Positions 2,626 to 40,917 of a stretch of 64,000 bases of DNA are shown piece after piece. This stretch comes from Arenimonas daejeonensis (GTDB lineage: Bacteria > Pseudomonadota > Gammaproteobacteria > Xanthomonadales > Xanthomonadaceae): positions 1,178,001-1,242,000 of the forward strand of contig NZ_CP042453.1 of the NCBI RefSeq assembly GCF_007993735.1, read 5' to 3'. The notes beneath the pieces are model-generated. The model searched no databases and was not told the origin of the DNA. It saw nothing but the letters and a program-made list of their open reading frames with translations. The translations under genes were made by a program, and so were the position numbers. The first letter of the stretch is position 1. Each line of letters opens with the position of its first letter.

Positions 2626-3789
2626 ATGAGCGATGCCAAGCAACACGGCCTCGGCACCCGCGCCATACATGCCGGCCAGTCGCCCGACCCGAGCACGGGC
2701 GCGGTGATGACGCCGATCTACGCCACCTCGACCTACGTGCAGTCCAGCCCGGGCGTGCACCAGGGTTACGAATATTCGCGCAGCCACAACCCGACCCGCT
2801 TCGCCTACGAGCGCTGCGTCGCGGCGCTGGAAGGCGGCGGCAATGGCTACGCCTTCGCCAGCGGCCTGGCGGCGACGTCCACGGTGCTGGACGTGCTCGA
2901 CAGCGGCAGCCACGTGGTCTGCATGGACGACGTCTATGGCGGCACCTACCGCCTGTTCGAGCGCGTGCGCCGCCGCAGCGCCGGCCTGGACTTCAGCTTC
3001 GTCGACCTCAACGACATGGCGGCGCTGGAAGCCGCGGTCACGCCGAAGACGAAGCTGATCTGGTGCGAGACCCCGACCAACCCGATGCTCAAGATCGTCG
3101 ACATCGCGCGCCTGGCCGAGTTCGCCCGCAAGCGCGGCATCTGGCTGGCCGTGGACAACACCTTCAGCTCACCTATCCTGCAGCGCCCGCTCGAACTGGG
3201 CGCGCACCTTATGATGCACTCGGCCACCAAGTACCTCAACGGCCACAGCGACATGGTCGGCGGCATGATCGTGGTCGGCGACGACGCCGGGCTGGCCGAG
3301 CAGATGACCTTCCTGCAGAACGCGGTCGGCGGCGTGCAGGGCCCATTCGACAGCTTCCTGGCGCTGCGTGGCCTCAAGACCCTGCACCTGCGCATGAAGG
3401 CGCACTGCGAAAACGCCGGCGAGCTGGCGGCGTGGCTGGAAAAACACCCAGCCATCGACAAGGTGATCTACCCGGGCCTGGCCTCGCACCCGCAGCACGC
3501 GTTGGCCAAGCAGCAGATGAACGGCTTCGGCGGCATGATCTCGATCTACGTCAAGGGCGGTGCCGATGCGTCGCGCCGGTTCATGGAGCGCTGCCGGCTG
3601 TTCGCACTGGCCGAGTCGCTGGGCGGCGTCGAGAGCCTGGTCAACCACCCCGCGATCATGACCCATGCCTCGGTGCCGCCGGAGCGCCGCGCCGCGCTGG
3701 GCATCGCCGACAACCTGGTTCGGTTGAGCGTTGGCGTGGAGGATGTGGCGGATCTGCGGGCGGAGCTGGAAGAGGGTTTGGCACGATGA
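2626..3789 (+). CDS. metB: Cystathionine gamma-lyase / gamma-synthase (Cys/Met metabolism PLP enzyme)
   Basis: A 387-aa member of the Cys/Met-metabolism PLP family (fold type I). The PLP lysine is in HSATKYLNGHSD (Lys 202); the upstream YEYSRSHNPTRFAYE and the C-terminal SLGGVESLVNHPAIMTH are family hallmarks. Next to a cystathionine beta-synthase, the likely role is cystathionine cleavage (reverse transsulfuration to cysteine), but gamma-synthase activity cannot be excluded by sequence. A Shine-Dalgarno AAGGA lies before ATG 2626. Its TGA overlaps the ATG of the ABC-exporter permease (ATGA at 3786-3789), so the polysaccharide export operon appears translationally coupled to it. Confidence 0.88.
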   Translation: MSDAKQHGLGTRAIHAGQSPDPSTGAVMTPIYATSTYVQSSPGVHQGYEYSRSHNPTRFAYERCVAALEGGGNGYAFASGLAATSTVLDVLDSGSHVVCMDDVYGGTYRLFERVRRRSAGLDFSFVDLNDMAALEAAVTPKTKLIWCETPTNPMLKIVDIARLAEFARKRGIWLAVDNTFSSPILQRPLELGAHLMMHSATKYLNGHSDMVGGMIVVGDDAGLAEQMTFLQNAVGGVQGPFDSFLALRGLKTLHLRMKAHCENAGELAAWLEKHPAIDKVIYPGLASHPQHALAKQQMNGFGGMISIYVKGGADASRRFMERCRLFALAESLGGVESLVNHPAIMTHASVPPERRAALGIADNLVRLSVGVEDVADLRAELEEGLAR

Positions 3790-4609
3790 GCATGATGCAG
3801 GGACGCTACGTCTCCGAGGATGGCCAGGGGTGTTCCACCATCTTTGGCAGAGCCTGCGTCGGCCGGAGTACTGGGCGTACTCCAGCTGGCTCGAGATCAC
3901 CACGAAGTATCGGCGCACCAGCCTGGGCCTGCTCTGGTTGTGCCTTCCGGTCGCGTTGTTCGTCCTGGTGCTCGGCAACGTCTATTCGCACCTGATGGGC
4001 TACCCGTTGGAAAAGTACATGCCTTACCTTGCCATCGGTTACGTCATCTGGCGGTTCATGATCCAGGTCGTCACCGATGTCGCCGGCGCGTTCCCCACGC
4101 ACAAGGCCAACATCATGGAGGGCCGGATCCGGCTCACCGATTTCATCCTGGTGTCGTTCTCCAAGGCCGGTTTCCACCTGATGTTCGGCGGCGCGGTGGT
4201 GGTCGGCGTGCTGTTGTGGTCGCCGGCGGCGCACGTCGGCCTGCTCTGGACCTTGTTGCTGACTTTCCCGCTGCTGCTCGCGAACCTGGGCTGGATCGCG
4301 GTCTGCATCGCCCTCGTCGGCGCCCGGTTCCGCGATACCCAGGAACTGATCGGCGCCATCCTGATGCTCGGTTTCCTGTTGACGCCGATTCTCTGGCAGG
4401 TGGACCGCTTTCCGCCGGATACGCTGCGCGGCAGCCTGGTGAGGTTCAACCCGGCCTTCCATCTCATCGAAGTGGTGCGTGCACCGATTCTCGGTGGAAC
4501 GCCGGAGGCGGCCTCGTTCTGGATCGTGGGGTTGATGGCCGTCGCCGGCTGGGCGCTGACGCTGCTTGTATACCGGCGCTATGCGCGCTTCGTTCCCCTT
4601 TGGGTCTAA
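3786..4609 (+). CDS. wzm: ABC-2 type polysaccharide export permease Wzm (one-base frameshift)
   Basis: Integral-membrane subunit of a Wzm/Wzt-type exporter, with about six hydrophobic segments. The body starts VFHHLWQSLRRPEYWAYS and ends YRRYARFVPLWV, as in ABC-2 permeases of O-antigen or capsule exporters. The natural start is ATG 3786, overlapping the metB stop; it reads MSMMQGRYVSEDGQG and then goes out of frame. One missing G in the GGGG run at 3827-3830 would join it to the long frame and give 274 aa, normal for the family. Without repair, GTG 3830 could start a slightly shorter protein. The ATPase subunit follows 9 b downstream. Confidence 0.85.
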
Positions 4610-4618
4610 GGAAAGTCG

Positions 4619-5449
4619 ATGAGCGCATTCATCACCGCAAAGGGCGTGGGCCTCGATGTCCCGAACTTCGTCCAGACGGAACGGTCGGCCAAGTCGTTCC
4701 TTAGCACGCTGCTGGCCGCGGCGACATCGCGGCCCCGGCGCGAGTTCAGGACCATCCTCGACGACGTGAGCCTGGAGGCGAAGGAAGGCGACCGTATCGC
4801 GCTGATGGGGCGTAATGGAGCCGGCAAGACCACCTTGCTGCGCGTGTTGTCGGGTGCCTTCCGGCCGACCCGCGGCGCGGTGGAGGTGCATGGCTCGCGC
4901 CAGGCGCTGCTCAACCTCGGGTTGGGTTTCCACCAGGAAGCCACCGTGCGCGAGAACGTGTTCCTCAGAGCGGCGGCGATGGGTCTCGCCGGCCGGGAAA
5001 CCGCACGGCTGTTGCCGTCCATCATGGATTTCTCCGGACTGGGCGACTGCGCGAACCATCGGCTGGCGGTGCTGTCGTCGGGCCAGCGCATGCGCCTGGG
5101 TTTCGCCATCTCCACCAGCGTCCAGCACGACATCATGCTCATGGACGAATGGTTCGGCGCTGGCGACGCCGAGTTCGTCGACAAGGCGCGTGAACGCATG
5201 ACGGACCGTGTGCAGGGCAGCAAGATCGTCGTGCTCGCCAGCCACAACTTCCAGATGCTGCGCGAGGTCTGCAACCTGGGCATGGTGATGGACTACGGCC
5301 GGGTGGTGTATTTCGGTCCGGTGCGCGACGCGATCGACGCCTACAAGGGCATCTACCAGGCCAGCGACGAATACAAGGCGCGCCACGCCCGCGTGGGCCG
5401 GGCTCGCGCGGGTGCCGTCCAGGCCGTCGGAGATGGTGGCGATGCCTAG
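4619..5449 (+). CDS. wzt: ABC exporter ATPase Wzt (short form)
   Basis: 276-aa ATP-binding subunit. It carries Walker A GRNGAGKT (about residues 64-71), signature LSSGQRMRLGF, Walker B IMLMDEWFGAGD and an H-loop ASHN. It is the partner of the preceding permease and would drive export of a lipid-linked glycan across the inner membrane. It lacks the C-terminal carbohydrate-binding domain of long Wzt proteins (O8/O9a type), so chain-length recognition would have to lie elsewhere, as in capsule or teichoic-acid exporters. AAGGAAAG precedes ATG 4619. Its 3' end overlaps the start of the next glycosyltransferase. Confidence 0.9.
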   Translation: MSAFITAKGVGLDVPNFVQTERSAKSFLSTLLAAATSRPRREFRTILDDVSLEAKEGDRIALMGRNGAGKTTLLRVLSGAFRPTRGAVEVHGSRQALLNLGLGFHQEATVRENVFLRAAAMGLAGRETARLLPSIMDFSGLGDCANHRLAVLSSGQRMRLGFAISTSVQHDIMLMDEWFGAGDAEFVDKARERMTDRVQGSKIVVLASHNFQMLREVCNLGMVMDYGRVVYFGPVRDAIDAYKGIYQASDEYKARHARVGRARAGAVQAVGDGGDA

Positions 5450-6844
5450 CCCGACGCCGCAGCGCATCCTGCTGGTCGCGTACGAGTTCCCGCCTAGCCC
5501 GTCACCCCAGTCCATTCGTTGGGCTTACCTGGCCAGCGAGCTGGTGGCGCTGGGCCACGATGTCCACGTGCTGGCGCCGGAACACAGCGCGCACGGCGCC
5601 GGTTTGCCGGCGCTGCCGCCCGGCCTGACGGTGCACAGGACCTTCGCCGGTCCCTTGATGGGGCTGCTGGCATGGCGCGCCCGCCGGGGTCGGCCGGCCG
5701 GGGCCTCGGCGGTTCCACCGTCGCAACCCCCCGGCGTCGCTGATGACGGGGATTCGCTGAACTGGAAGGGGCGGGTCTGGCACACCGGTCTGAACTGGAA
5801 AGGCCGGATGTTCGCCCGGTTGCAGAAACTGCTGCAGTGGCTGCTGTTTCCGGACCAGCGGGCGGAATGGAAGCCCTGGGCGCGGCGCCGGTTCCGCACC
5901 CTGGTGGCCGAACTGCGGCCGGACGTGGTGATCAGCTCCCACGAACCCGCCACCACGATCGAGATCGGGCTGGACGCCGTCGGGCAGGGCGTGCGGTGGA
6001 TCGTGGACATGGGCGACCCGGTGCTGGCGCCGTACACGCCGCGACGCTGGCGACGCCGGGCAGGTGCGCTGGAGCAGGCGGCCTGCCGTCGCGCGAGCCA
6101 CGTACTGGTCACCACGGCCCAGGCGCGTGATCTGTTGATGGAGCGGCACGGCCTCGCCGCCGATCGTTGCACGGTGCTGACTCAGGGCCATGCGCCGGAC
6201 CCCGCACTGCCTGCCGACGGACCGCTGGATCCTGTCTTCGATCCCGGGCTGCTTGAGCTGCTGTATACCGGCAGCTTCTACGGCTTCCGCCGCCACGATG
6301 CGCTGATCGAAGCCGTGCTGGCCACGCCGGGCGTGCGGCTCAACATCGCTTCGGTCAATGTGCCGGACGATATCCGCCAGGCGGCGCGGACGTCGGGTGG
6401 CGCGATCCGCCTGCTTGGTTTCATGCCGCACCTGCATGCGCTCAAGGCCCAGCGCCGCGCCGACGTGCTGGTGAACATCGCCAACGACAATCCTTGCCAG
6501 GTGCCCGGGAAACTTTATGAGTACCTCGGCGCCGGCCGGCCGATCCTGCACCTGGGCGACAGCCCGGATGATGCCGCGGGCCATCTGCTGGCCGACACCG
6601 GCGGCGGCGTGGTCTGTCCGAACGAGCCCGCCGAAATATCGCGAAGGCTGGAGCATTGGCGTCACTCCAAGCTCGACCGGGGCAGGTCGCTTTCGAGGCG
6701 CGGGCCGGCAGCGTGGATGCCTACGCCTGGCCCGCTATCGCCGCCCGGCTCGATGCGATAATCCGCCCCCAGCCGGCTTCCCCGGCACGGCACAGCCACT
6801 TTCCGACGAACAACGTCCCAAGGAACGCAGAAAATGAACAATGA
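5442..6844 (+). CDS. Glycosyltransferase family 4-like protein (one-base frameshift near the C-terminus)
   Basis: GT-B fold glycosyltransferase, about 467 aa after repair. The N-terminal Rossmann half begins RILLVAYEFPPSPSPQSIRW; the C-terminal half contains LLYTGSFYGF and the nucleotide-sugar region PGKLYEYLGAGRPILHLG. A short repeat of LNWKGR occurs twice around 5757-5807. As read the frame ends at 6761 in low-complexity sequence, while another frame supplies VAFEARAGSVDAYAWPAIAARLDAI; one missing G in GGGG at 6679-6682 joins them and the gene then ends at 6844, overlapping wecC. ATG 5442 is chosen; ATG 5433 is in frame. Donor and acceptor are unknown. Confidence 0.8.
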
Positions 6845-8123
6845 CACTGGCCGCCAGAGCACCGCTGCAGGCGTGAGCGATGAAATCGCCAGCCTGGCAG
6901 TGGTCGGCCTCGGCTACATCGGCCTGCCCACGGCGGCGATGTTCGCCGCCAGCGGGCTTCGGGTCCATGGCGTGGACATCAGCCAGCGTGCGGTGGACAG
7001 CGTGAACCAGGGTCGTGCGCACATCGAGGAGGGTGACCTGGACGCGCTGGTCGAGCGCTGCGTCAGGGACGGCCTGCTCAGCGCGACGTTGACGCCGCTG
7101 CCTGCCGACGCGTTCATCATCGCCGTGCCGACGCCGGTCGGCCATGACGATGCGCACCAGCCCGACGTGGCCTACGTCGAGGCCGCCGGTCGCTCGATCG
7201 CGCCGGTCCTGAAGAAAGGCGACCTGGTCATCCTCGAATCCACCTCGCCGGTGGGAACGACCGGGATGCTGGCGCGTGTCATGGCCTCGTTGCGCCCGGA
7301 CCTGGTGTTCCCCGGTGGCGAACGCGAGCCGGACATCCACGTGGCCTACTGCCCCGAACGCATCATCCCCGGGCAGATGCTGCGCGAGCTGGTCGAGAAC
7401 GACCGCATCATCGGCGGCATGACGCCGGGTTGCGCGCGCCGCGCGACCGGGCTCTACAAACGCTTCGTGAAGGGCGAGTGCCACCTGACCAACGATCGCA
7501 CGGCGGAAATGGTCAAGCTCACCGAGAATGCCTACCGCGACGTCAACATCGCCTTCGCCAACGAGCTGTCGATGATCTGCGACGGCCTTGGCATCAGTGC
7601 ATGGGATGTGATCGCCTTCGCCAACCGGCATCCGCGCGTGTCCATCCTCAACCCCGGGCCTGGCGTCGGCGGGCATTGCATCGCGGTGGACCCCTGGTTC
7701 ATCGTCGCCAGCGCGCCCGACCGCGCCCATCTCATCCGCCAGGCGCGCCTGGTCAACGACGCCAAGCCGCACCACGTCATCGACCAGGTCGAGGCCTTGC
7801 TCTTGAGTCGCCCCGGGACGCGCGTCGCCTGCCTGGGACTGACCTACAAGCCGGACGTGGACGACTTCCGCGAGAGCCCGGCGCTGCAGATCGCCCGTGA
7901 ACTCAATGCGCGCCATCCCGGCCAGGTGCTGTGCGCGGACCCGTACGAGGCGGCGCTGCCGCACGCGGGCCTGGGCGACACGGGGCTTGTGCTGGTGGGT
8001 GCGCAGGAGGCGGTGGACCGGTCCGATGTCGTGTTGTTGCTGGTCGGGCACAAGGCATTCGCGTCCCTCGGCCTCGACGCCGGGAAGCATGTGATCGACA
8101 CGGTCGGGCTGTGGCGTCGATGA
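6834..8123 (+). CDS. wecC: UDP-N-acetyl-D-mannosamine dehydrogenase
   Basis: 429-aa UDP-sugar dehydrogenase that oxidises the C6 alcohol of UDP-ManNAc to the uronate in two NAD-dependent steps. The NAD-binding VVGLGYIGLPTAAMFA is at residues 23-38, the central helix region has KLTENAYRDVNIAFANEL, and the catalytic cysteine lies in GPGVGGHCIAVDPWF (Cys 282). The C-terminal UDP-binding domain includes CLGLTYKPDVDDFRESPA. The GHCIAVDPW form matches WecC better than UDP-glucose dehydrogenases. AAGGAACG precedes ATG 6834. A UDP-GlcNAc 2-epimerase (wecB) that would make its substrate is encoded at 36119-37264. Confidence 0.92.
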   Translation: MNNDTGRQSTAAGVSDEIASLAVVGLGYIGLPTAAMFAASGLRVHGVDISQRAVDSVNQGRAHIEEGDLDALVERCVRDGLLSATLTPLPADAFIIAVPTPVGHDDAHQPDVAYVEAAGRSIAPVLKKGDLVILESTSPVGTTGMLARVMASLRPDLVFPGGEREPDIHVAYCPERIIPGQMLRELVENDRIIGGMTPGCARRATGLYKRFVKGECHLTNDRTAEMVKLTENAYRDVNIAFANELSMICDGLGISAWDVIAFANRHPRVSILNPGPGVGGHCIAVDPWFIVASAPDRAHLIRQARLVNDAKPHHVIDQVEALLLSRPGTRVACLGLTYKPDVDDFRESPALQIARELNARHPGQVLCADPYEAALPHAGLGDTGLVLVGAQEAVDRSDVVLLLVGHKAFASLGLDAGKHVIDTVGLWRR

Positions 8124-8148: not shown

Positions 8149-11100
8149 GTGAAGGACCAGGACTCGCCGCCGCTGGACTCCGCTGCCGCCACCAAGGCGC
8201 TTCGGGACGCCGTGCGCCAGGAAGCGCATGAAGAGGACCTTGCGCGCATGCGCGAGGCGCTGGCGGAGAAGGCGCACCATGTCGGGCTGCATGAAAACAG
8301 CGTGGTGCGCCAGATCGGCGCCATGCAGGTGGATGCCCTGCGCTCCTGGCGGGGCTGGGTCTCGTTGCCTTCGCGCCTGCTCCGGCTGGCCCGCACGGTC
8401 CGGCGCGGGCCGGGTCCCGGTCACATTCCGGATGCCGAGCTGGAAGCCCAGGCGGAGGCGGCCCTGGCCATCTACAACGCCGGTGGGTTCGTGGCGGCGG
8501 ATGCGAAGGTCAGCGGCACGTTCCTGAGCGTCGAGCAGCGCGCGCGCGTCTACACCGAACTCGCCAAGCGGGTCTTTCCGATTTCACCGCGCGACGCCTG
8601 CCGGTTCGGCCAGGTGGCCGAAACCCTGGAGCCGAAGCCGTACCGGACGCTCTGGCTGGCCTACATGCGCTTCGATGCAGGCGAACTGGACGAGGCCCTG
8701 GCCACGCTGGACAGGCTGCCCGTCGAACATCCGCTCACCGACGAAGAGAAGGAACGGACGACGCAACTGCGCGGGCTCGTGCGCTTGCGGCACCGTCTTC
8801 CCGTGATCCCGCCGCGTGCGCCGGTGGCGGCACGGGATCGCAAGGGCGTGCTGTATGTCGCCGCCAGTGCGCTGCCCCATCACGTCTCCGGGTATACGTT
8901 GCGCACGCAGGAGCTGCTTTCCGCGCTGCGCGGGCAGGGTGTCGAACTGGCCTGCCTGACCCGGCCCGGCTATCCCGCCGATCGTCCGGACCGGGCCGCG
9001 GAGCCGGTCGATCCGACGACCGTGGACGGCATCGAATACCTGAGGGCGCCCGGAAACCGCCAGCTCAATGCGCCCGACGAATACATGGCGCGTGCGGCCG
9101 ACGCCATCGAGAAGGTCGTTCGCGAACGTGGCGTTGCCATCGTCCACGCCGCTTCGAACTACGAAAACGCATTGCCCGCCCTGATCGCGGCGAGGAGGGC
9201 GGGACTGCCCTTCGTCTATGAAGTTCGCGGCCTGTGGGAGTTCACCAACGCCAGCCGCCTGCCGGGTTACGAGCAGCAGGAGCGCTTCGCGCTGGAGCGT
9301 GACCTGGAAACGCTGGTCGCGCGCAGTGCGGACCATGTGCTGGCCATAAACGAGGACCTGGCGGCGGAGCTGCGCCGGCGCGGCGTGCCGGCGGAACGTA
9401 TCTCGTTGGCGCGCAATGGCGCCTATGCGGTCGATCGTCCCGATCCCGATCCGGAACTGCGGCGCACGCTGGACATCCCCGACGGCGCGTTCGTGGTCGG
9501 CTTTGCAGGCACGCTGACGCGATACGAAGGCCTGGATGACCTGTTGCGTGCGGTGGCCCGCCTGGGCTCCGACGGCAGGCAGGTGCACGCTTTGCTCGTC
9601 GGCACCGGGGAAGCCTGGGCCGGGCTCGAGCAGCTCGCCCAAGAACTGGAGATTTCCTCGCGGGTGCATTTTGCCGGCCGGGTCGCCCCTGCCGACGTCC
9701 GGGCGCACCTGGCGCTGTGCGATTGCGTTGCGTTGCCGCGCAAGCCCTTGCGTGTCTGCGAACTGGTCGCGCCGCTCAAGCCGGTCGAGGCGATGGCCAT
9801 GGGCCTGCCGCTGGTGGTGTCCAATGTCGCGCCGCTGCGCCGTCTCGTCGAGGACGGCCGCACGGGCCGGGTGCACGCTGCCGGCGATCCGGACGCGCTC
9901 GCCAGATGCCTGGCCGACTTGGCTGCCAACCCCGAAGCGACCCGGCGGATGGGCGAAGCGGCGCGCCGCGTGGTCGAAGCCGAGTTCGGATGGGACCTGG
10001 TGGCAACCGACGTCGCGGCGGTCTATCGGGTCCTGGAAGATGGCACGACCGTGACATCGGCCTCCTCGGCGTCGACCGTTACCAGCACATCGCCGCGTGT
10101 CGGGCTTGCAGGTGGGCTTCGTTCGCTCAGGGTCGCCACGATCATGGACGAGTTCACGCAGGCCTGCTTCGAGCCGGAATGCCAACTCACGGCGCTGCGG
10201 ATCGCCGACTGGCGGACGCAGATGGACGAATGCCAGCCGCACTTGTTGCTGGTGGAGTCCGCCTGGAAGGGCCACCGCATGGAGTGGGCCAAGAAGGTCC
10301 CGCAATGCAGCCACGAGCTGCGCGAGCTGGTGGCCTACTGCCGGTCGCGCGGCATACCCACGGCGTTCTGGAACAAGGAGGACCCGGTCCACTACGCGCT
10401 GTTCCTGCGCGCGGCGGCGCTGTTCGACGTCGTATTCACCACGGACATGGACCGCATCAAGTCCTACCGCGAGGACCTCGGCCATTCCCGCGTCCACCTG
10501 CTGCCATTCGCCGCGCAGCCCCGCGCGCACAACCCGGTGGAGAAGTACGACCGCAAGGATGCATTCTGCTTCGCCGGCTCGTACTACGTGAAATATCCGG
10601 AGCGGCGCGCCGACTTCGACATGCTTATGGAAGCCGCCGCCGATTTCCGGACGGTTGACATCTTCGACCGCAACCACGGCTCCGACGACCCGGGGTTGAC
10701 CTTCCCCGAGCACTACCGGCCCCTGATCCAGGGCTCGCTGCCGTTCTCGGAGATCGACAGGGCCTACAAGGGATACCGTTACGCGATCACGATCAACACG
10801 GTCAAGCAGTCGCAGAGCATGTTCGCTCGTCGCGCCTTCGAACTGCTGGCATGCAACACGTTCACGATCAGCAACTATTCCCGCGGACTGCGGACCATGC
10901 TGGGAGAGCTGGTGCCCTCGGCGGGCGACGGCAGCCACATGCGGGAACTGCTCGCGGGCCTGCTGGCGGACCAGCAGAAGCTGCGCAGATTCCGCCTGGC
11001 GGGCCTGCGCAAGGTGCTCTCGGAGCATACCTATGCGCATCGCCTGTCCTGGTTGGCAAGCCGGACTTTGGGTGAGCCGGTAGAAGCGGATCGCGCACGT

Positions 11101-14100
11101 GTGCTCGTGCTGGTCCAGGCGGCCGACCAGGCCGCCGTGGACGCGGCCATCCTGGCGTTCGACGCGCAGCAGTGGCCCGAAAAACACCTGTTGCTTGTCG
11201 CAGCCGCGGGTCTGGTGCCGGACGTCCCGCTTGGACGTCGTGACCTTTCGCTTATTGGCGCGGATGAGGCCAGGCGAATCGACCCTGGGGTCGCCTGGCC
11301 CGAGCACTGGATCGCCCGTCTCGACGAGCGTGACCACCATGGGCCGAACTACCTGACCGATCTCGCGCTGGCGACTTCGTTCTCACGGGCTGCCGCGCTG
11401 GTGAAGGCGGCGTTCTATCGCCTGGAGGACGGGGTCCCCGTGCTGATCGACGATGGCCAACAGTACCGGCCTGCCAGCGGAGGCAGCTTGCGCCGTGCGC
11501 TGGTGCGCAGCGAGGCGCTGGCGGGCCGGATGCTCTCCGAGTTGCTCGACGGGGATGCTGCGATCGGTGCCGTCGAAACGCTTGCGATCGACGAGTTCAA
11601 CTACTGCGAAGGTGGCGCGGGCGCGAACATCGACGCCGGAGTGCACGATCTGGCACTGGACACGGGCATGTCCATGGACGAGGTGCTGATGCGTGGTGAG
11701 ACGCGCTTCGCCAGCGCGACGCCCGTGGCCAAGCGGGAGGACCGGGATGATTCCGAGGCGGAATACCTCCGCATCCTGTTCCCCCCCGTCGAGCCATGCC
11801 GAGGACAAGCTCAGGGTGCTCCACGCGGGCGACCACGTCCAGCTCAGTTCGCGGCTGGATGACGGCAAGCATGGTTACGTCTATGCCGCCCGCATGTTCC
11901 GCGCCGATGAGCTGGCCGAGGACGGTGCCGTGCGCTTCCACCTGCGCACTTCGGCCGGGCTGTATGTAAACGTCGCACTGGTTTTCCTCAACTCCGCGAA
12001 AGAAAAAATCTCGCACGCCATCGTCTCCTCCGACACGAACCAGGCGATACCGATGCCTGCCGGGACCGAGTGGATACGATTGGGGCTGCGGGTGATCGGT
12101 TCGGGTGACACCGACGTACTGGCCCTGGTCCGTGGCGCGGTTTCTCCCCGCCTGGACCAGATCACCGGCCTCGGCAGGGCGCTGCTCCTGACCAAGGACT
12201 ACCCTCGTTACGACAATCTGTATCGCTACGGCTTCGTGCATCGTCGTGTACTGGCCTACGGGCAGGCCGGAACCCGCGTTGACGTGTTCCGCTTCAGCAG
12301 CCAGGCGCTCGAGTTTTCGGAGTTCCAGGGCATCGACGTGGTGGCCGGGCAGTCCGAGCACCTGTCGATGCTGGTCAGGGCAACCACTACCGGTGCCTGC
12401 TCGTGCATGCCATGGACCCGCAGATGTGGGAGGCAGTGAAGCCGCTGCTGGACAATGTCAGGGTGATCGTCTGGGTGCATGGTGCCGAGATCCAACCCTG
12501 GTACCGGCGGAGTTTCAACTTCGCCGATGCCGCGCAGATGGAGCGAGCCCGATGCGCCAGCGAACTCCGGCGCCGGATGTGGCTGGAAGTGCTCGCGCAC
12601 CCGCATCCGAACCTGCGCCTGGTGTTCGTCTCCAGGCACTTGGCCCACGAGGCCGTACGCGATCTCGGGGTGGACGTTCCGTTGCGGCAGCTGGCGGTCA
12701 TCCCCAATTTCGTGGACGGCGAGCTGTTCCGCTACCGGCCGAAAACCGCGGAGCATCGGCGCAAGATCCTGTCCATCCGGCCTTTTGCTTCCGCCGCCTA
12801 CGGCAACGACATGACGGTGGCCGCCATCGTCGAACTGTCGCGCGTACCCTGCTTCAGGGAGCTGGAGTTCCGTATCATCGGCGACGGGCGCCTGTTCGAA
12901 GAGACGGTGGCGCCCTTGCGCGCCTTCCCCAATGTCACGCTGGAGCAACGTTTCCTGTCCCAACAGGAGATCGCCGAACTGCATTCTGAATACGGCGTGT
13001 TCCTGGTTCCGTCCCGCATGGACAGCCAGGGAGTGTCCCGTGACGAGGCGATGGCATCGGGGCTCGTGCCGGTGACCAACGCGGTGGCTGCCATCCCGGA
13101 GTTCGTGGACGGCAGTTGCGCATGGTTGGCCGCCCCCGAGGATGCCCATGGCCTGGCCATGGGCATCCTTACCCTTTATCGCGAGCCCGAGCGTTATTTG
13201 GCGATGTCCGCCGCTGCATCGGAGCAGGCGCGCCGCCTTTCGGGTGCCGAGGCCACCATCAATCGGGAACTTGTGCTCATCGGCGGTGCTTCCGTGCCGG
13301 CGCCGGCGCTGGATCCCGGTCCTGTCATGCGCCGCCTGGCCATCTATGGCGACGTGAACATGAACATCACCGATGGCTCGGCGATCTGGGCGGCTTCGTT
13401 GGCCCAGGTATTGGCCGGGCAGCCGGGAGTCAGCGCCACACTTTACCTCAAGGCGAGGGTGCACTCCCCGCGCATCATCGCGCCCCTGTTGCCGATCGAA
13501 TCCTTGCGGGTGGCGGAACCCGACATCGAGGTCCGCCAGACGCTGTCCCCGCGCGAGGCGCTGGACTGGATGGAGGCCGACGATGCCACCCACGCGTACG
13601 ACGCCATCGTGCTGCGTGGGTTCGAACTGTGCCGGTGCGCGTCGGAACGACCGGCATTGGCGGGACGCTTGTGGGTCTATATCACCGACCTGCCGCAGCG
13701 CGAGGAACTGGTGGATGGCGACACGCTGGCCACGTTGCGCACCATCGCCGCCGCTGCAGCAGTGGTTCTGTGCCAGACGCCGCAGTTCCGCGACTACCTC
13801 GAGCACCTGCTGCCGGAAGTCGTGGGCAAGACCCGGCTGCTGCCGCCGATGGTCCCGGCCCTGGCGCCGCCAGCGGCCGACATACAGAGATCCGGATCCA
13901 CGCCATTGCTCGTCGCCTACGCCGGCAAGTTCGCGCCGCTGTGGGGCGTGCGCGAACTGTTCTCCGCGCACCGGAAGCTGCGCGACGAGGGCCTGGACCT
14001 GCAGCTGCATGCCTACGGCGACAAGATCCACAACCCGCCGGACGACCCGGCCTTCCGGGACACGGTGAAGGCGGCGCTGACGGAACAGCCGGGCGTGACC

Positions 14101-14484
14101 TGGCATGGCGCGATGGAGCGCGAGCCGTTGCTGGCGGCCTTGTCCGGCATGCATGTCGGATGGGCGTGGCGACACCCCGATCTGGAAGCGCACACGCACG
14201 AACTTTCCACGAAGGTGCTGGAGTACGCGCTGTGCGGCATACCGCCGATCCTCGCGGGCAACGCGCTGAATCGTGACGTGTTCGGCGCGGACTACCCGCT
14301 TTATGCCGACACCGAAAACGAAGCGCTTGAGCTGTTGCGCCGCTTGGCGCGCGACCCGGCATTGCTGCAGCGGGCCCGCGACGGGCTGCGAGAAGTGACG
14401 ACCCGGTTCACCTTCTCCGGGGTGCGGGCCGCCCTGGCTGCCCAGGGGTTGTTGCCCGGGGTGCCGGAAGCGGCCGGGCGATGA
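8149..14484 (+). CDS. Giant multidomain glycosyltransferase, about 2111 aa (two frameshifts)
   Basis: Three consecutive open stretches join into one protein if one C is removed from the C7 run at 11781-11787 and one G is added at 12378-12380. Approximate domains: helical N-terminus 1-230; GT4 domain 235-630 (SGYTLRTQELLSALR, LKPVEAMAMGLPLVVSN); CgeB-like domain 655-980 (AFWNKEDPVHY, FAGSYYVKYPERR, RRAFELLACNTF); degenerate GT2-like domain 980-1215 (WIARLDERDHHGPNYL); beta-sandwich 1217-1335; second GT4 1340-1720 (HGAEIQPWYRRSF, VPSRMDSQGVSRDEAMASG); third GT4 1725-2110. It probably builds several linkages of the repeat unit. GTG 8149 opens the long frame; ATG 8120 overlaps the wecC stop and may be the true start with one more indel. 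The 3' end overlaps the heparinase ATG. Confidence 0.75.
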
Positions 14485-17034
14485 CTTCGCCCGACCCGAC
14501 CGCCGGCAAGGTGCTCGAGGCGCTGCGTGCCCGGATCATGTCCATCCGCGCCAACCCCGCGGCGGCCAGGGCCGGGCGGCGCCTGCTGGCGGACGGCGTC
14601 TACCAGTTCCGCGGATTCCCCCGCCAAGGTGGATCTGCTGGCCGACTGGCGGGCGAATCCCTTCGGGCATCGCAGTTGGCAGTGGCACACCGCATCGTTC
14701 AACTTCATGCCCTGGCTGATCGCACTGGACGCCGCCGGAGAACCGGCGGCGATGCGCCGGGCGCTGGAGGCGGTGAGGTCCTGGTCGGCCGCCTTCCCGA
14801 CCGCGGACAGCGATTACGAGTTCGCGTGGCACGACCATGCCACTTCCACGCGGGCACTCAATGTCCTCTGGCTGTTGTGCCACCTGCGCATGGACGGGCG
14901 AGAGCCGGAAGCACAGCAGATGCTGGAGTCGTTCCTGTCGCGGCACGCCGAACGCCTGATGGAAGAGGGCATGTACTCGAGGCATACCAACCACGGCATC
15001 GACCAGTCGCGCGTGCTCGCGCTGCTGGGCGCGAGCCTTGCGAACGGAGCGGAATGGCGGGCCAGGGCGATGACGCGGCTGGCGGACGAACTGGCCTTCG
15101 CATTCGGGCCCGACGGCGTGCATGTCGAGAACAGCCCGACATATCACCAGTTCGTCAGCAACCTGTTCACCGAAGTGGCGGCGAGTTTCGATCGAGACCA
15201 GCTTGGTCCGCTCGGAGCCTCGCTGGACGAGGTGCTGCCACGCGCGCTCGACTACATGGCCTGGATCGTGCGCCCGGACGGATTGATGCCGACGCTCGGT
15301 GATTCCGAACAGCGCCGGGCAAACAACGTCTACCGCAGCCTTGAAGGCACGCCAGGGCACGCCCGGCTGGACTGGGTGCTCAGCGGTGGCAACGAAGGTG
15401 AAAAACCCGCGGGATGGGTACGGGCCTTCGAGGCCGGCGGTTACCTGGTGGCACGCAGCGACTGGTCGGCGGCGGATGCGCCCGCCGATGCATTCCACAT
15501 GGTGCTCCGGTGTGGCTTCCGTTCCGGCTACCACCGTCACGACGACGACCTGTCGATCTGCCTGTACTGGGGCGGTGACTGGCTGCTGGACCCGGGCATG
15601 CACAACTATGTCGAGGAGTCGCCGGTGCGCCGGTACCTGCGTTCGAAGTGGGCGCACAACGTTCCCGTTCCCGAAGGGTTCGGGCCCGACTGGTCGCGCC
15701 CGGCCTCGAATGCAGACGGCGGGCTGAAGCTGGTAGCCGGTGACGATGACCGTGCGCGGGCCGAGGCCTGGACCGCATCCTATCCGGGGATGTCGGCGCG
15801 CCGTTGCCTGGATATCGACCTGGCGGCGCGCCGGTTCGAGGTCGAGGACCGGCTGGAGTCGGCCTCGGCAACGGGCGGGCAGCACCTCTTCAAATCACTG
15901 TGGCACCTGCCGGCGGACAAGCAGGTGTCCATCGGCGACCGGCAGGTGCGCATCCTGGATGTGGTCCAGGGGCGTGAGCTGCGCATCGACGTGCTGGAGG
16001 GCGACTGCGAGCGGATCGTACTGGAAGACCCCGGCATCGAGGGCCAGCAGGGCGCGGTCGCCTCGCGCGAAGTCAACTCGCTGGAACCGGCGCAGGTATT
16101 GTCCTTCCAGTTCCGCGGCGCCGTGCTGCACTCGCGGCTCGGATTCCGAATGATCGACCATCGTGCTGACCAGCGCCTGGGAGGCAGCGACCCCGGGCGC
16201 GCCCTGTTCGAGAGTTATTGCCGCGAGCCTGCCCAATGGTGGCCTCCACTGGCCAAACGCGGCATGGAACGGATCTGCAAAAGCCGGGATGCGCACCTGC
16301 AGCGCCTTGGACTGGACGCGGCCGGCCTGGCGGAAGAACTGTACGCCACCGCCGTGCTGCGAAAACGCAAGCGGCGGCCGACCATCTACCTCACCGGGCT
16401 CGGCGGCGCCGCGGCGGCACGGCTGGAAACCCTGCTGGTGCAAGGCGCGGGCATGATCGGTGCCGGTTGGACGCAGATGCCCGCGCCGCTGGTGAAACGG
16501 GTCATGGCGCTCGATGCCAGGCACCGGGCGATCATCGTTGATGCCATCCATCTCCTGAACTCGCAGGCGGAGCCGACGGATGTCCTGCATGCCAGTGCCG
16601 TCAGCACCGAAGCGATCGTGCAGGCCGACCTGTATTTCACTCCCGAGCCGGGTTGCGTGAAGGTGCTGCTGTGCGGCGATCCGGTGCTGTACTGCCTGAG
16701 CCAGTCTGCGGCCGGTGTGCAGGTCCCGTCAGGCAAGGAACTTGAACACGCCGTCGCCCGGGCCGAGCGCGCCTTGCGCTGGTCCCAGCGCCAGCAGTTC
16801 GACCTCGGTTACACGCCTCAGCAGGTGCTCGACGCGCCGGGTGAGGTGGTGGCCGCCATCTGCCGCGCCAGCGGCACGCCGCTCGACACGGATCGTCTCG
16901 AGAGAGCGCTGCGACGACAGGCCAGGCATGCCAGCGCGGCAGGCATTGCCAGCCGCAGCGATTTCCCGGCAGCGCTGGTCAGCCGCCTGGAGGATCGGTT
17001 CGCGCCATTCGCCGGCCTCTGGCCGCGCGACTGA
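14481..17034 (+). CDS. Heparinase II/III-family protein with C-terminal sulfotransferase-like domain (one-base frameshift)
   Basis: ATG 14481 overlaps the stop of the giant glycosyltransferase (ATGA). The first 45 codons are in another frame from the rest; removing one C from CCCCC at 14618-14622 gives 850 aa. Residues 50-300 are alpha-helical (SRHTNHGIDQSR, ENSPTYHQFVSNLF), followed by the heparinase beta-sheet domain with GYHRHDDDLSICLYWGGDW and KWAHNVPVP. From about residue 620 comes a different domain, TIYLTGLGGAAAARLETLL then VLLCGDPVLYCLSQS; these resemble the 5'-phosphosulfate loop and 3'-phosphate motif of sulfotransferases, though degenerate. Heparinase-fold proteins cleave uronate polysaccharides; here a biosynthetic trimming or modification role is likely. 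The same pair is encoded separately at 28162-31454. Confidence 0.75.
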
Positions 17035-17060
17035 AGCGGATCACGGGAGCCTTTGCACGC

Positions 17061-19629: not shown

Positions 19630-19638
19630 GCCGCCGGG

Positions 19639-20388
19639 TCAGGCGGCGGCGAAATCGCGGGAATAGCCGAAGGCGTCGAAATCGGCCCGGAAACGTTCGT
19701 AAATCAGGTCGGCCAGTTCGGGAGTGTAGAACTGGGCCAGCTTGCTGCCGGCATTGGTCACCTTGGGCGACTTGTTCACTTCGGATGCGGCCATGGGCGG
19801 CCGGACTTCACCCCAGATGCGGCGGCTGACCTCGCCCATGTCTTCCCAGAGGTTCTCGAACTTTCCGATGAAGTCGAACTCCATGTCGCCCCATAGGATG
19901 TCGTCGGCCTGGACCCGCCAGTGCGAGTTCTGGTCGGGAGACTTCTGCGCGCAGATGGTGCGCACGAACAGGTCGAAGCTGATGTCTTCCGTAACCACAT
20001 CCTTGGCCTTCAGCGTGCGGAGCAGGTGCGCCCTGGGTTTGCTGGTCGGGTTCAGGATGCGGTCGAGGTAACACGACAGCGTGCGTGAATAAGGGTTGCG
20101 GACGAATGCGAACCGGAAATAATTGCCGCTGTTGAGCACCACGCGCAGCAGGTCCGGCGGAAGCTGGTAGGGCGAAAGCAGGGGTGACAGCCGCTTGTCG
20201 AAGGGCGAGGGCGGGGCCTTGTTCACCGATTCGAGCTCGATCGTGTACAGGCTGTTCTTGATCGAGCTGTTGGCGACCTTGTCCACGGCGAAATAGACGT
20301 ATTTGTTCCGCAGCGAGATGTTGGTGGAGTCCTCGAAATCAATCGGCCGCTTGCGGCGCGCGATGAGGGTCTGGTCGTAGATCGCCAT
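19639..20388 (-). CDS. Carbohydrate sulfotransferase family protein
   Basis: 249-aa, compact sulfotransferase of the Sulfotransfer_2 type (related to chondroitin and HNK-1 sulfotransferases). KYVYFAVDKVANSSIK (about residues 29-44) is the 5'-phosphosulfate-binding loop and FRFAFVRNPYSRTLSCYLD (about 90-110) the 3'-phosphate motif with the key Arg and Ser. It would move sulfate from PAPS to a sugar hydroxyl; no signal peptide is visible, so it probably acts in the cytoplasm before export. ATG at 20388 is used; upstream in-frame sequence is not coding-like. It is the only reverse-strand gene inside the plus-strand polysaccharide operon and is divergent from the glycosyltransferase at 20516. Confidence 0.82.
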   Translation of the reverse strand: MAIYDQTLIARRKRPIDFEDSTNISLRNKYVYFAVDKVANSSIKNSLYTIELESVNKAPPSPFDKRLSPLLSPYQLPPDLLRVVLNSGNYFRFAFVRNPYSRTLSCYLDRILNPTSKPRAHLLRTLKAKDVVTEDISFDLFVRTICAQKSPDQNSHWRVQADDILWGDMEFDFIGKFENLWEDMGEVSRRIWGEVRPPMAASEVNKSPKVTNAGSKLAQFYTPELADLIYERFRADFDAFGYSRDFAAA

Positions 20389-20515
20389 CAAACCTGCCTC
20401 TGTGGAAGTGTGGGGCTGCGGCGGGCCTGGGGCGGCCCCGTGCCCGGGTGGTCCGGACCCTAGTATTATGCAGGCCCGCAACCAGCGGGTGCGAGGCTGG
20501 GCTTCGAGGAGCGAC
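20389..20515. promoter_or_regulatory. Divergent promoter region between sulfotransferase and glycosyltransferase
   Basis: 127 b between two divergent starts. A possible plus-strand -10 (TATTAT, 20464-20469) follows a GC-rich stretch with GGGCGGCCCC. No clear -35. This is the only place within 3786-24848 where a new plus-strand transcript obviously must or could start. Confidence 0.35.
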
Positions 20516-21690
20516 ATGAGGATTCCGGACATGGCGGAAGGGGCGACCAGCCCCGCCGAGGCGTTCATAGAGGCGGTCACGGCCCAGGCCCACGACATGG
20601 CCACCCTGCCCTATGTGCTCACCTATGCCCCTGTGGCGCAGATGAACCCGTTCCAGCGCCTGCTGTATTCGCGGTCCGCCGAATACGGCTTCGCGATCGT
20701 GCCGGCGCTTCAGTTCGGGCACCTTGGACTGGCCGGATGGCGCGACCGGTCGGTGATCCACCTGCATTGGCTGGCCGGGATATTGGACGGCGTCGCGACG
20801 CAGGAAGAGGCCGGCGGGCGGATCGAGGCCTTCGCTTCTGACCTGGCGCGCTGGCGCGACGACGGCCATCGCATCGTCTGGACCATGCACAACGTGCTGC
20901 CGCACGACTGCGATATTCCCGAGGCCGAGGTCGCACTGCGCCGGGTGATCGTGGCGGGCGCCGATGCCATCCATCTGCTGTCGCGCAGTTCCGCCGACGA
21001 GGCGCGCCGCCACTACGACGTCCCCGAACACAAACTTTTCCATGTGCCGCATCCTTCCTACGAAGGCTGGTACGCCAATGCCGGCGACCGCATCACCGCG
21101 CGACTCGACATCGGCGCCGAACCGCGCGACTTCGTCTTCGTGCTGTTCGGCTCGATACAACCCTACAAGGGCGCCATCGAACTGGTGGATGCCTTCGAGG
21201 TGCTGCGGGAAATGCATCCCGGCCGATCGCTGCGGCTGGTCATCGCCGGAAAGCCGATAGACAAGGAGTACACGCAACGCCTGGCGGCGCGCATGGCGCA
21301 CGTCCCTGGCGCATCGCTGCTGCCCAGCTCGCTGGAAGAGCGCAACATCCAGTCACTATTCAACGGCGCGGATGTGGTGGTGGCCCCTACCAACGTACCC
21401 TGAACTCCGGCGTCGCATTATTGGCGGCGACCTTCCGCCGCCCCTTGATCGCGCCGCGTGCCGGCGGCGTACTCGAAACCTACTCGGCCGATCCTGCATT
21501 GCTTTATGGCAATACACCGGGAGACGGCCTAGTCGAGGCAATGGACCGCGCCTTGGGTCACCGATCGTCTCCGGACGCCCTTGACGGCATCCTCGCGCGG
21601 CATCGTCCGGCCGATGTCTCAAGCCGTTTCTTCAGGGCCCTGCACGAGCACCTGTTCTCGCGCGACGGCCACGGGAAGGTCCGCTCATGA
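20516..21690 (+). CDS. Glycosyltransferase family 4-like protein (one-base frameshift)
   Basis: About 391 aa after repair. The N-terminal half has VIHLHWLAGILDG and VWTMHNVLPHD, typical of GT4-like enzymes; the C-terminal half has FVLFGSIQPYKGAIELVDAF and, after the shift, YQRTLNSGVALLAATFRRPL, the conserved nucleotide-binding end. As read it terminates at TGA 21401-21403; one missing C in CCCC at 21384-21387 restores the frame to 21690. ATG 20516 has a good Shine-Dalgarno (CGAGGAG, 20505-20511). Its stop overlaps the start of the next gene (ATGA, 21687), and the junction lies in a 51-bp tandem duplication. Confidence 0.8.
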
Positions 21691-21770
21691 AAATCGCCAA
21701 GATCATATTCGGCGCTGGACCACGGGAAGGCCCGCTCAAGAGAATAGCCAAGATCCTTTTCGGCGCTGGT
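21669..21770 (+). repeat. 51-bp imperfect tandem duplication across a gene junction
   Basis: Unit 1 (21669-21719) covers the last codons of the upstream glycosyltransferase and the first 10 codons of the next gene. Unit 2 (21720-21770) repeats it in frame with about seven mismatches, starting ACGGGAAGG in both. As a result the protein begins with KIAKIIFGAGP followed by KRIAKILFGAGP. Confidence 0.75.
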
Positions 21771-25978: not shown

Positions 25979-26187
25979 GCAGTCGTACGCGAGCATTCGA
26001 GTTCAAGCAAGCACGCCAAGCAGGTGCCGCAAGTTGCTGAAAAATAAGAATAAAATACGGCATTTTGTTTGATGGTCGATTCCGCGAATGTCCGGAATTG
26101 ATGCCAATGCTCGTTACATTGGAACGCGAAGAGTCAACTTCGTCGGTGATCGCCCAGGCGCACCGATTTCCTTCCTTGAGAGTCCCA

Positions 26188-26709: not shown

Positions 26710-26754
26710 TCCGCGGGCAGGGCACAGTTCGACGATGAGATAACGAACGCGCAC

Positions 26755-26874: not shown

Positions 26875-26935
26875 CAAAGAGCCAACTTAATCGGCTGCTA
26901 CTTCGGCGCGCCGAATCCATTCTTGGAGAATCCAA

Positions 26936-27448: not shown

Positions 27449-27493
27449 TCCAGCCGACGTCCTTTGGACCCACGCCGAGACGCTGAAGACGAT

Positions 27494-28115: not shown

Positions 28116-28130
28116 GGCGGACTGCCGACC

Positions 28131-28161: not shown

Positions 28162-29553
28162 TTACTGGAAGTCGCGAATCTCTCCGGGCACCCCGAGCGC
28201 TTCCGGAAGGCCCGAGGTGTTTGTCCGGGCGAGCGAAGGGAGCTGGGTGGCCGAGGGGGCGCAGCGCACTCCGGAACACGCCAGGTCCAGGTTGACGACG
28301 CGCTCGAGGCGACCGAGCAATGCAAGCGGCTCGTCGCCAAACTTCGCCAAGCCAGCCGCGCACAGATCGGTGATCCAGGGGCGCAGGGCATCGCCGCCGG
28401 GCAGGGCCATGTCGCCGTTGCGCAGCACCAGCCGGACCCGATCCCCGGGTTCGAGTTCACCGCGGTCCTTGAGCGGATGCCAGCCGTCCTCTGCGGCGGA
28501 CTTCACGTCGTAGCGGGAAACCACCTCGTCCGGTAGTTTCGCAAGCACCTGTGGAAGCCCCGGGGGCGCAGCTGCGGTTGGCGCCGGGGACTGCGGGAAA
28601 CAGTCGCAAAGCGCATAACCCTGGCCCGAGATCGCGCGCGCCATCACCGCGTGCATGGATCGGCGATAGTTCGGCTCCATGTCCCGCCACGATTTGGCGA
28701 CGCCACCCTGATCCAAGTTCCCTCGTTCTGCGCTCATCCCCTCCGTGCTGCGAAGAAACTCGGGGCTGTTGCGATGGGAAACATCGGCAGCCACCTCGGT
28801 GCTGATCTCAAGTCCGATGGCGGCGAGCATGTTCCTCAAGGTGTCTGGCCCGCGCTTCCGGAAGTCCTCGTAACTGACCTGGACGTCCGCCTTGTGCCTG
28901 AGCCCGGAATAGCGGTCCCAGTAACTCTGGCTGCGGCGCGCCTTGGACAGCATGTACTCAAAATCGTCGAGTCCGGTCGCTTCGTAGGCGCGGTACTCCG
29001 CCTTGCGGAAGCTGACCGACATGGTGCGGTCACGCGGGTCCCGGACAAGGTGGATGACCTTCGCGTCAGGACGCAGCCAGCGATAGAACGAAATCTTCTC
29101 GCAGCCGTGGGCCGAATTGACCATGCGGGCGCTCGCGAAATCCGCCGGATCCAGGCCATAGAGAAGGCCGTGGGCGAGCTCGGTCGCATCCATCATCCTC
29201 GCCGCCTGCTCGCGGTCCTGCGTGCGGAGTTCCGCATACTGCCGCTGAGGAAGATAGACTTCGCCCGCGTCCATAAGACCCGCGGATTGCGCCATCATGC
29301 GCGACACCCAGTGCGAACCGCATCCACCCAGATTTACGAGGTATACGGGAAGCGTCTGGTCAGGAGCTCGCTGCTGCACGGCGGCGATCAGGGATTCGAC
29401 GAAGGAGTCGCGCGACAGTCCATGTCTCTTGAGCGCGATGGAGATCACGGATTCCAGTTTTACTACCTGGCGCTCCCTGATATCACCCCAAGCGCTCACG
29501 GGGTCCCGGAAGTAATCGCGGACCCACTGCTTCCAGTCAGGCGGTGTCGTCAT
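28162..29553 (-). CDS. Sulfotransferase family protein with C-terminal extension
   Basis: 463 aa. LPVYLVNLGGCGSHWVSRMM (about residues 69-88) is the 5'-phosphosulfate loop and AKVIHLVRDPRDRTMSVSF the 3'-phosphate motif, both well preserved. KSWRDMEPNYRRSM matches the late region of PAPS-dependent sulfotransferases. From about residue 330, after a Pro/Ala linker, there is an extra domain of about 130 aa (DRVRLVLRNGDMALPGGDA, RLERVVNLDLACSG) with no family I recognise. The heparinase-fold gene lies just upstream on the same strand (25-b gap), so the two form an operon that mirrors the fused protein at 14481-17034. Confidence 0.85.
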   Translation of the reverse strand: MTTPPDWKQWVRDYFRDPVSAWGDIRERQVVKLESVISIALKRHGLSRDSFVESLIAAVQQRAPDQTLPVYLVNLGGCGSHWVSRMMAQSAGLMDAGEVYLPQRQYAELRTQDREQAARMMDATELAHGLLYGLDPADFASARMVNSAHGCEKISFYRWLRPDAKVIHLVRDPRDRTMSVSFRKAEYRAYEATGLDDFEYMLSKARRSQSYWDRYSGLRHKADVQVSYEDFRKRGPDTLRNMLAAIGLEISTEVAADVSHRNSPEFLRSTEGMSAERGNLDQGGVAKSWRDMEPNYRRSMHAVMARAISGQGYALCDCFPQSPAPTAAAPPGLPQVLAKLPDEVVSRYDVKSAAEDGWHPLKDRGELEPGDRVRLVLRNGDMALPGGDALRPWITDLCAAGLAKFGDEPLALLGRLERVVNLDLACSGVRCAPSATQLPSLARTNTSGLPEALGVPGEIRDFQ

Positions 29554-31454: not shown

Positions 31455-31589
31455 GGTCGATCGGCTATCGAACGGCTGCACCCGGCTGGTCGCGTCTGTG
31501 AGGGGATCGGGATCATACGTCTTCTCCCTGGCCGGGTCACTTCAGGTGCCCGTAGCATTGGCCGAAAGTACGTGTCGGCCCTGACGCCA

Positions 31590-40870: not shown

Positions 40871-40883
40871 GCCGCACGACACC

Positions 40884-40889
40884 TATAAT
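40884..40889 (+). promoter_or_regulatory. Putative cysD -10 box
   Basis: A consensus TATAAT lies 28 b before ATG 40918. Transcription from it would start near 40896, which argues against ATG 40888 and 40897 as cysD starts. No clear -35. Confidence 0.4.
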
Positions 40890-40917
40890 GCACGCCATGA
40901 ATCAAGGACCTGACGCG

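Follow-up and report, generated by a model that had tools for sequence, protein, structure and literature searches.

A heparinase II/III-type protein with a fused, degenerate sulfotransferase-like domain at a predicted O-antigen locus of Arenimonas daejeonensis

Here we analysed a 64,000-nucleotide stretch of the Arenimonas daejeonensis genome (contig NZ_CP042453.1, positions 1,178,001 to 1,242,000; hereafter the window) and in particular one of its genes, HEP-pST, which joins a heparinase II/III-type enzyme to a C-terminal domain resembling sulfotransferases. HEP-pST occupies 14481..17034 on the forward strand and contains a frame break near 14620: the ATG at 14481 sets the frame of the first ~45 residues, and the remainder is read in the main frame, 14626-17031. 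The heparinase part (14626..16209, forward strand, 528 codons) consists of the toroid and beta-sandwich domains, which Pfam recognizes as Hepar_II_III_N (PF16889, E 2.5e-15, 57.1 bits for a cut-off of 22) and Hepar_II_III_C (PF07940, E 5.1e-15, 56.1 bits for a cut-off of 24). The last ~270 residues have no Pfam match at E 1. They make up the domain that we call pseudo-sulfotransferase (16210..17031, forward strand, 274 aa), which in a single BLASTP comparison is 25% identical over 161 aa (E 4e-10) to ST3, a sulfotransferase encoded separately at 28162-29553. The first-pass annotation of this DNA had proposed one frame, after a single repair, carrying heparinase II/III domains and a sulfotransferase-like C-terminus, and the Pfam matches, the BLASTP comparison and the position of the break all agree with it.

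The broken frame of the window would not suffice by itself as proof of a fusion. However, four relatives carry the heparinase and the C-terminal domain in a single open frame, namely the genomes G116 (997 aa), G329 (866 aa) and G1010 (907 aa) and Luteimonas terricola (871 aa), the unbroken fusion frames lying at 9824-12439 of locus L009, 13525-16515 of L010, 10438-13038 of L011 and 11078-13780 of L078. The fusion can therefore be taken as real, and the break in the window is probably a sequence error, of which the locus shows several. Breaks with respect to relatives were located at 8149-14484 (glycosyltransferase), 14620 (fusion) and 18161-19629 (MBOAT acyltransferase), and further ones were seen by eye at 20402-21690 (glycosyltransferase), 29579-31481 (HEP2, a second heparinase) and 41826-42053 (start of cysNC). 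With so many breaks and a completeness of 86% on one contig, the assembly looks error-rich.

The origin of the C-terminal domain was addressed with profiles. That of the sulfotransferases comprises three unfused rows: ST3 of the window, the enzyme of G812 and part of that of G972. Compared by hhalign with a profile of unfused sulfotransferases, the profile of the fused domains gives a probability of 99.2% and an E value of 1.8e-19 over 268 columns, and homology to Sulfotransfer_3 / Sulfotransfer_1 enzymes spans the whole C-terminal domain. Against the three-row sulfotransferase profile the window domain reaches 30.5 bits, and no shuffle out of its 1000 exceeds 7.1; over all five fused domains the scores range from 25.7 to 75.3 bits, and the top score among 1000 shuffles of each from 5.5 to 8.1 (3595 of the 5000 shuffles were scored, the rest being unreported). 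The heparinase halves scored below zero in each of the three cases reported out of five. The general models are less sensitive: at E 1 the Pfam sulfotransferase models have no match in three of the five fused domains (window, G116 and L. terricola), and those in G329 (14.2 bits) and G1010 (18 bits) stay below the cut-off of 27. Searched with phmmer against the PDB, the window domain has no match at E 10; solved sulfotransferases are reached only by the profile of the unfused enzymes (7d1x, 5.2e-4). On these comparisons, the fused domain almost certainly descends from a sulfotransferase.

Two C-terminal motifs had been likened in the first-pass annotation to contacts with the sulfate donor 3'-phosphoadenosine 5'-phosphosulfate (PAPS). 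Their positions do coincide with the 5'-PSB loop and the 3'-PB motif of sulfotransferases, the former expected to have a Ser or Thr and the latter an Arg and a Ser. Alignment to two intact sulfotransferases shows that the 5'-PSB loop of every one of the five fused domains has lost its Gly-Ser-His, with a Ser shifted by one column in G116; the loop reads GLGGAAAARL in the window fusion and NLGGCGSHWV in ST3. The Glu of the GEVYLP motif is gone from two of the five, as is the Arg of the 3'-PB motif, in both cases from G116 and from the window copy, where this motif reads CGDPVLYCLS. The clade of G329, G1010 and L. terricola retains GEVYLP and the 3'-PB Arg (kept in three of five), with Arg and Ser together in G1010 only. 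Gly-Ser-His, Glu and Arg are all present in the unfused sulfotransferase of G812 and in ST3. The loss of motifs is thus stepwise as far as these alignments tell, and furthest advanced in the window and its nearest relative, G116. Could the fused domain nevertheless still transfer sulfate by way of an atypical donor site, making the protein bifunctional? G1010, with its 3'-PB Arg and Ser and its GEVYLP motif, comes closest to such an enzyme, and the domain is under constraint, but no copy keeps Gly-Ser-His, the window and G116 also lack the 3'-PB Arg and the GEVYLP Glu, and Pfam models either miss the domains at E 1 or leave them below cut-off. We consider this very unlikely. Since the domain appears both sulfotransferase-derived and degenerate, a non-catalytic role, already suggested in the first-pass annotation from the state of the motifs, is likely.

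In the clade of G329, G1010 and L. terricola, the ratio of nonsynonymous to synonymous substitution rates (dN/dS) of the fused domain amounts to 0.25, 0.24 and 0.21 in the three comparisons, with 0.19, 0.17 and 0.17 for the heparinase part. Between the window and G116 it is 0.49 for the fused domain and 0.23 for the heparinase part. Though rough, these values of 0.21-0.49 speak against a pure relic, and the pseudo-sulfotransferase seems, by this measure, to have been kept under constraint after the loss of its donor-binding parts. The relaxed constraint in the pair of window and G116 (0.49), together with the stepwise motif loss, would be expected of a functionless, decaying passenger which there has been too little time to lose. 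Yet five genomes keep the frame of the domain open, even where its identity with the window copy has dropped to 26%, and it evolves at 0.21-0.25 in the other clade, which renders the passenger explanation unlikely. In an 8-row tree, all five fused domains fall to the same side of a branch supported at 100/98.

The heparinase part keeps the residues of its active site. A profile built from four of the fusions finds heparinase III structures with E values of 2.6e-16 (5jmd), 7.4e-15 (4mmi) and up to 2.7e-14, while the NCBIfam HepC models score far below their cut-off (38.1 of 700 bits in the window, 64.9 of 700 in G329). The Asn of the TNHGIDQ motif (14989..14991, forward strand) aligns with position 216 of 4mmi, equivalent to Asn240 of heparinase III with an inferred offset of 24; the Tyr of the SPxYH motif (15142..15144, forward strand) aligns with Tyr294 and the first His of the YHRHDDD motif (15532..15534, forward strand) with His424, in what we take to be the heparinase III numbering (N240, Y294, H424). 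These catalytic Asn, Tyr and His residues are conserved in all five fusions, being invariant in the four aligned and present in G1010. Their equivalents in PL33 lyases are N238, Y291 and H444 (PMC11848413). The epimerase DS-epi1 has its fold and catalytic Tyr in common with these lyases (PMC8006597, PMC11848413), and consequently sequence does not decide between a lyase and an epimerase. Judged by hydropathy and not by a signal-peptide predictor, none of the five fusions begins with a hydrophobic segment: in their N-terminal stretches the mean over 19 residues reaches 0.71 at most, and in the second heparinase of G1010 it reaches 2.09.

The locus itself was examined for the pathway in which such a protein might work. 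Its left border is a metB-type gene of the cystathionine gamma-synthase family (2626..3789, forward strand; NF005871, 517.8 bits for a cut-off of 513; PF01053, 8.1e-149), also found in G812 and G842, and its right border an etfA-type gene (37261..38202, reverse strand; PF00766, 1.9e-32) together with etfB. In between, and on the forward strand, lie a Wzm/Wzt-type ABC exporter permease and ATPase (3803..5449; NCBIfam galactan export models, Wzm 8.9e-45 and Wzt 8.5e-53, both below curated cut-offs), a UDP-N-acetyl-D-mannosamine dehydrogenase of the WecC type (6834..8123; NF008286, 568.6 bits for a cut-off of 459) and a giant glycosyltransferase gene (8149..14484), in pieces in the window and a single frame of ~2100 aa in G329, G1010 and L. 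terricola. The UDP-GlcNAc 2-epimerase WecB is encoded on the reverse strand beside etfA (36119..37273; TIGR00236, 508.8 bits for a cut-off of 210.15). The space between metB and etfA is described as the lps locus of xanthomonads (PMC524487). Both borders are visible in the window, G812 and G842, and the stretches fetched from the other genomes end before one or both of them. By its position and its ABC exporter, WecB and WecC genes, the locus is predicted to be an O-antigen site of the xanthomonad type.

Other genes of the locus accompany the fusion. Directly after it, at 17061-19629, come an SGNH-like protein (recognized by eye, with no Pfam family over cut-off) and an MBOAT acyltransferase (PF03062, over cut-off); the same two genes are also neighbours of the fusion in G116 and of the heparinase in G812, and perhaps form an O-acylation module for the same polymer. 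Two small proteins at 26065-26496 and 26936-27448 share near-identical stretches (RYRYVGATNACDATDPANFTGLRFRTIGVFNASLSSIQIACSVPADLNADN), an apparent tandem duplication. In the 22-kb stretch covering the L. terricola locus, five further frames were scanned and assigned by Pfam to an acyltransferase, a methyltransferase, a glycosyltransferase, a hexapeptide protein and weakly matched membrane proteins.

How widespread is the fusion? In a family sample of 395 genomes, 28 match the fusion profile at E 1e-5 and four, including that of the window, carry a full fusion. With the C-terminal domain alone as query, an order sample of 398 genomes returned four matches, in the window, G116, G329 and, weakly, G245 (8.9e-4); a class sample of 303 genomes added no further fusion. 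The fusion is rare and, within the samples searched, confined to the family of the window and L. terricola. No relative of ST3 was found on viral contigs, and in each of the 11 plasmid records that matched the best match listed falls inside the heparinase part of the query, none covering 80% of it. The heparinase-type C-terminal domain, for its part, is present in 164 of 398 genomes sampled across the phylum. An 863-aa frame in G1085 showed no sulfotransferase motif on reading by eye.

Seven loci encode this type of heparinase, five as a fusion, one (G812) with a separate sulfotransferase and one (G842) without. The G812 heparinase, 42% identical to that of the window, ends where the fusion continues, and 18 kb away in the same locus a separate 311-aa protein matches the C-terminal part of the fusion profile with E 2.3e-21. 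This protein is a Sulfotransfer_3 enzyme by Pfam (29.4 bits, cut-off 27) with the motifs NCGSSGSHWV, CGEVYLP and VRDPIDVVAS. In G972 a frame-broken sulfotransferase gene (L080, 8777-9556) lies between etfB and cysD, as in G812, and a search of the genome yielded no heparinase II/III gene.

The window encodes separate enzymes of both kinds as well. The sulfotransferase ST3 (28162..29553, reverse strand) is matched over cut-off by PF13469 (1e-9) and PF00685 (5e-7) and has the motifs NLGGCGSHWV, AGEVYLP and VRDPRDRTMS. HEP2 (29579..31481) lies on the same strand and stops ~25 bases ahead of ST3; its open part, 29710-31239, matches PF07940 with 1.2e-14, and both ends are in other frames as seen by eye. 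Thus the separate pair with preserved motifs reported by the first-pass annotation is there, with HEP2 frame-broken at both ends, and so is the 11 kb spacing (17034 to 28162, 11.1 kb). Another sulfotransferase of the Sulfotransfer_2 type, ST2 (19639..20604, reverse strand; PF03567, 1.7e-21), has a counterpart 81% identical in G116. A general sulfotransferase profile of our own making proved too narrow to serve as a detector and was abandoned; among 2357 frames it found ST3 alone and missed both ST2 and the G1010 sulfotransferase. A third heparinase of the genome of the window, in broken frames, is located at G000:C1:2975579-2976034 (locus L013, G000:C1:2969001-2983000), where its neighbours look like polysaccharide genes, by eye an epimerase and a glycosyltransferase.

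In G1010 a Sulfotransfer_3 protein is encoded ~4 kb downstream of the fusion (L078, 18080-19162), its gene overlapping the frame of a second heparinase (L078 from 19132 onward into L079). We rejected it as a second instance of the HEP2-ST3 pair, the heparinases being 22% identical and that of G1010 having a hydrophobic N-terminus; at best it is an independent pairing. Two of the five fusion loci yielded no intact sulfotransferase. In G329 the locus contains none; its sole Sulfotransfer_3 match is weak, scores below the cut-off and lies 124 kb away from the heparinase, and Sulfotransfer_1 and _2 gave no match. L. terricola has no Sulfotransfer_2 match and a sole Sulfotransfer_1 match on another contig, Sulfotransfer_3 not having been searched genome-wide. 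Searches for Sulfotransfer_1 and _2 covered seven of the family genomes and L. terricola.

On a larger scale, a class test was run on the 16 best-scoring of 37 positive genomes other than that of the window. A heparinase-sulfotransferase pair occurs within 10 kb in 3 of the 16 (0.60 expected), within 15 kb in 6 (0.89 expected) and within 20 kb in 6 (1.18 expected), the null being random placement, which ignores the preference of both kinds of gene for polysaccharide loci. Three further families of the class contain pairs spaced by ~3-15 kb (G1312:C16:113888-117733, G1132:C85:77687-84547 and G1167:C1:2712081-2727019), which are candidate sulfated-polysaccharide loci. Within the family, heparinases were located at 36 places in 27 genomes, and 6 of these places, in 4 genomes, have a Sulfotransfer_3 gene within 30 kb, two each in the genome of the window and in G1010 and one each in G812 and G170; at the remaining places it is farther off on the contig (10) or absent from it (20). 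Hence the class lends some support to a general association of heparinases with sulfotransferases, and the family lends little. The co-occurrence elsewhere that the first-pass annotation looked for is seen in the class, at 6 of 16 genomes within 15 kb, and in the four other fusions, but not as a rule in the family.

Its further proposal, that both activities act on the same glycan in a step coupled to sulfation, is likewise supported only in part: pairs exceed random expectation in the class, and against it stand the two fusion loci without an intact sulfotransferase and the low family count. Close to the locus, cysD and cysNC would supply PAPS (40840..43714, forward strand; CysD NF009214, 549.5 bits for a cut-off of 413; CysNC NF004035, 942.2 bits for a cut-off of 715). 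We did not retain them as evidence of sulfation, as they are also near etfB in G842, G812 and G972, and in G842 the contig of the heparinase has no sulfotransferase. Because no intact sulfotransferase was found in the loci of G329 and L. terricola or on the heparinase contig of G842, and G972 has a sulfotransferase gene without a heparinase, these genomes do not show a standing link between this heparinase and sulfation.

The reading that we prefer, and to which we give an even chance, is that of a cytoplasmic heparinase-fold enzyme acting on an O-antigen uronate, with a pseudo-sulfotransferase domain that holds the glycan. In ABC-exporter pathways the polymer is finished in the cytoplasm before export, so that a protein devoid of signal peptide could meet it there, and the genes for UDP-ManNAcA (UDP-N-acetylmannosaminuronic acid) supply suggest a uronate as its target. 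The enzyme would meet its substrate in the cytoplasm, a uronate of the O-antigen (probably ManNAcA) in the polymer under assembly and not yet passed through the ABC exporter, and the reaction would proceed by abstraction of the C5 proton, as in polysaccharide lyases and uronyl epimerases. Given the relationship to heparinase III, beta-elimination, trimming or ending chains, appears slightly more likely than epimerization. The C-terminal domain, a putative sulfotransferase descendant having lost the sites that hold PAPS, might have been retained since its acceptor surface still holds or positions the polymer, or since it shapes the enzyme; the odds for a glycan-holding role are about even.

Several points weigh against this reading. 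The sulfotransferase fold is without structural support, both AlphaFold models being poor (mean pLDDT, the predicted confidence score, 43.1 for the C-terminal domain of the window and 41.8 for the full fusion of L. terricola, from three-row alignments each), and the binding of glycan by this domain is what we infer. The dN/dS values are rough because dS is near 1 or above, and in the pair of window and G116 constraint is clearly looser on the fused domain than on the catalytic part. A single fusion event is recovered in fewer than half (47%) of 200 bootstrap trees (13-row heparinase tree). In G842 the heparinase is unfused, with no sulfotransferase on its contig on searches for Sulfotransfer_1, _2 and _3. 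Finally, a lyase in the cytoplasm would cut the cell's own product.

The last point is met by another explanation, which we consider less likely than the preferred one: the protein would be a polymer-level uronyl C5-epimerase, a bacterial counterpart of human DS-epi2, inverting ManNAcA or another uronate; sulfation by a separate enzyme would fix the product, and the pseudo-sulfotransferase would be a relic of direct coupling or a dock for the polymer. An epimerase fits cytoplasmic assembly better than does a depolymerase, the Asn and the next His are both kept, fold and catalytic Tyr are shared between DS-epi1 and lyases, and the domain order is that of DS-epi2 (PMC8006597). On the other hand, the profile search places heparinase III lyases nearest among solved structures, Pfam at E 1 gives PF16889 and PF07940 only and no DUF4962, the N-terminal domain of DS-epi1 (PMC8006597), and the separate sulfotransferase that would fix the product was not found intact in two of the five fusion loci.

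To our knowledge, the known heparinase III-type lyases, which we take to be family PL12, are catabolic and carry no sulfotransferase domain. Those of known structure (4MMH, 4MMI, 4FNV, 5JMD) share with the fusion the two-domain architecture, the profile matches and the catalytic Asn, Tyr and His. Sulfotransfer_3 / Sulfotransfer_1 enzymes such as that of G812 are homologous to the fused domain, but the Gly-Ser-His of their PAPS loop is absent from all five fused copies. A fusion of a deacetylase with a sulfotransferase is reportedly a working bifunctional enzyme. The protein described in PMC10864358 resembles HEP-pST in that a glycan-modifying domain is joined to a sulfotransferase domain, the former being there a deacetylase and not of the heparinase fold. 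The sulfated capsule cluster of Vibrio sp. KMM 8419 brings together an ABC exporter, PAPS genes and sulfotransferases, as does the window; the main text of the paper on this cluster contains neither of the words heparinase and lyase (PMC11641403). Among the matches listed from the open-licence PMC literature, titles and abstract openings name no bacterial heparinase-sulfotransferase fusion.

The first-pass annotation knew of no described system with this pairing. Such a system is described, however, in human DS-epi2 (DSEL), in which a heparinase-fold, uronate-acting epimerase domain is followed by a predicted C-terminal sulfotransferase domain (PMC8006597). The latter had no activity on the substrates tried and is reported as never elucidated (PMC9957132). 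DS-epi2 differs from the fusion in being an animal Golgi enzyme of a family tied to DUF4962 and not to PF16889/PF07940; its epimerase activity is shown, whereas the bacterial fusion is known from sequence alone, and there is no sign of common descent of the two fusions. By domain family the bacterial protein does not belong with DS-epi2, which it resembles in layout and perhaps in working. A bacterial equivalent evolved independently of animals, in which a heparinase-fold C5-epimerase is joined to a sulfotransferase that lost catalysis and turned polymer holder and in which inversion of the O-antigen uronate and its sulfation by a separate enzyme are organized as in dermatan sulfate, seems to us rather doubtful.

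The pairing is thus already known from human DS-epi2, and the new part is a bacterial case in which the loss of the donor site can be read. In a bacterial protein with the layout of DS-epi2 this loss is visible directly in the sequences; G812 provides an intact unfused relative to set beside it, and L. terricola is a named species in which genetics could be done. The part played by an inactive sulfotransferase attached to a uronate enzyme would thereby become open to experiment, and one kind among the heparinase-type genes, of which bacterial genomes have many, would be assigned a function.

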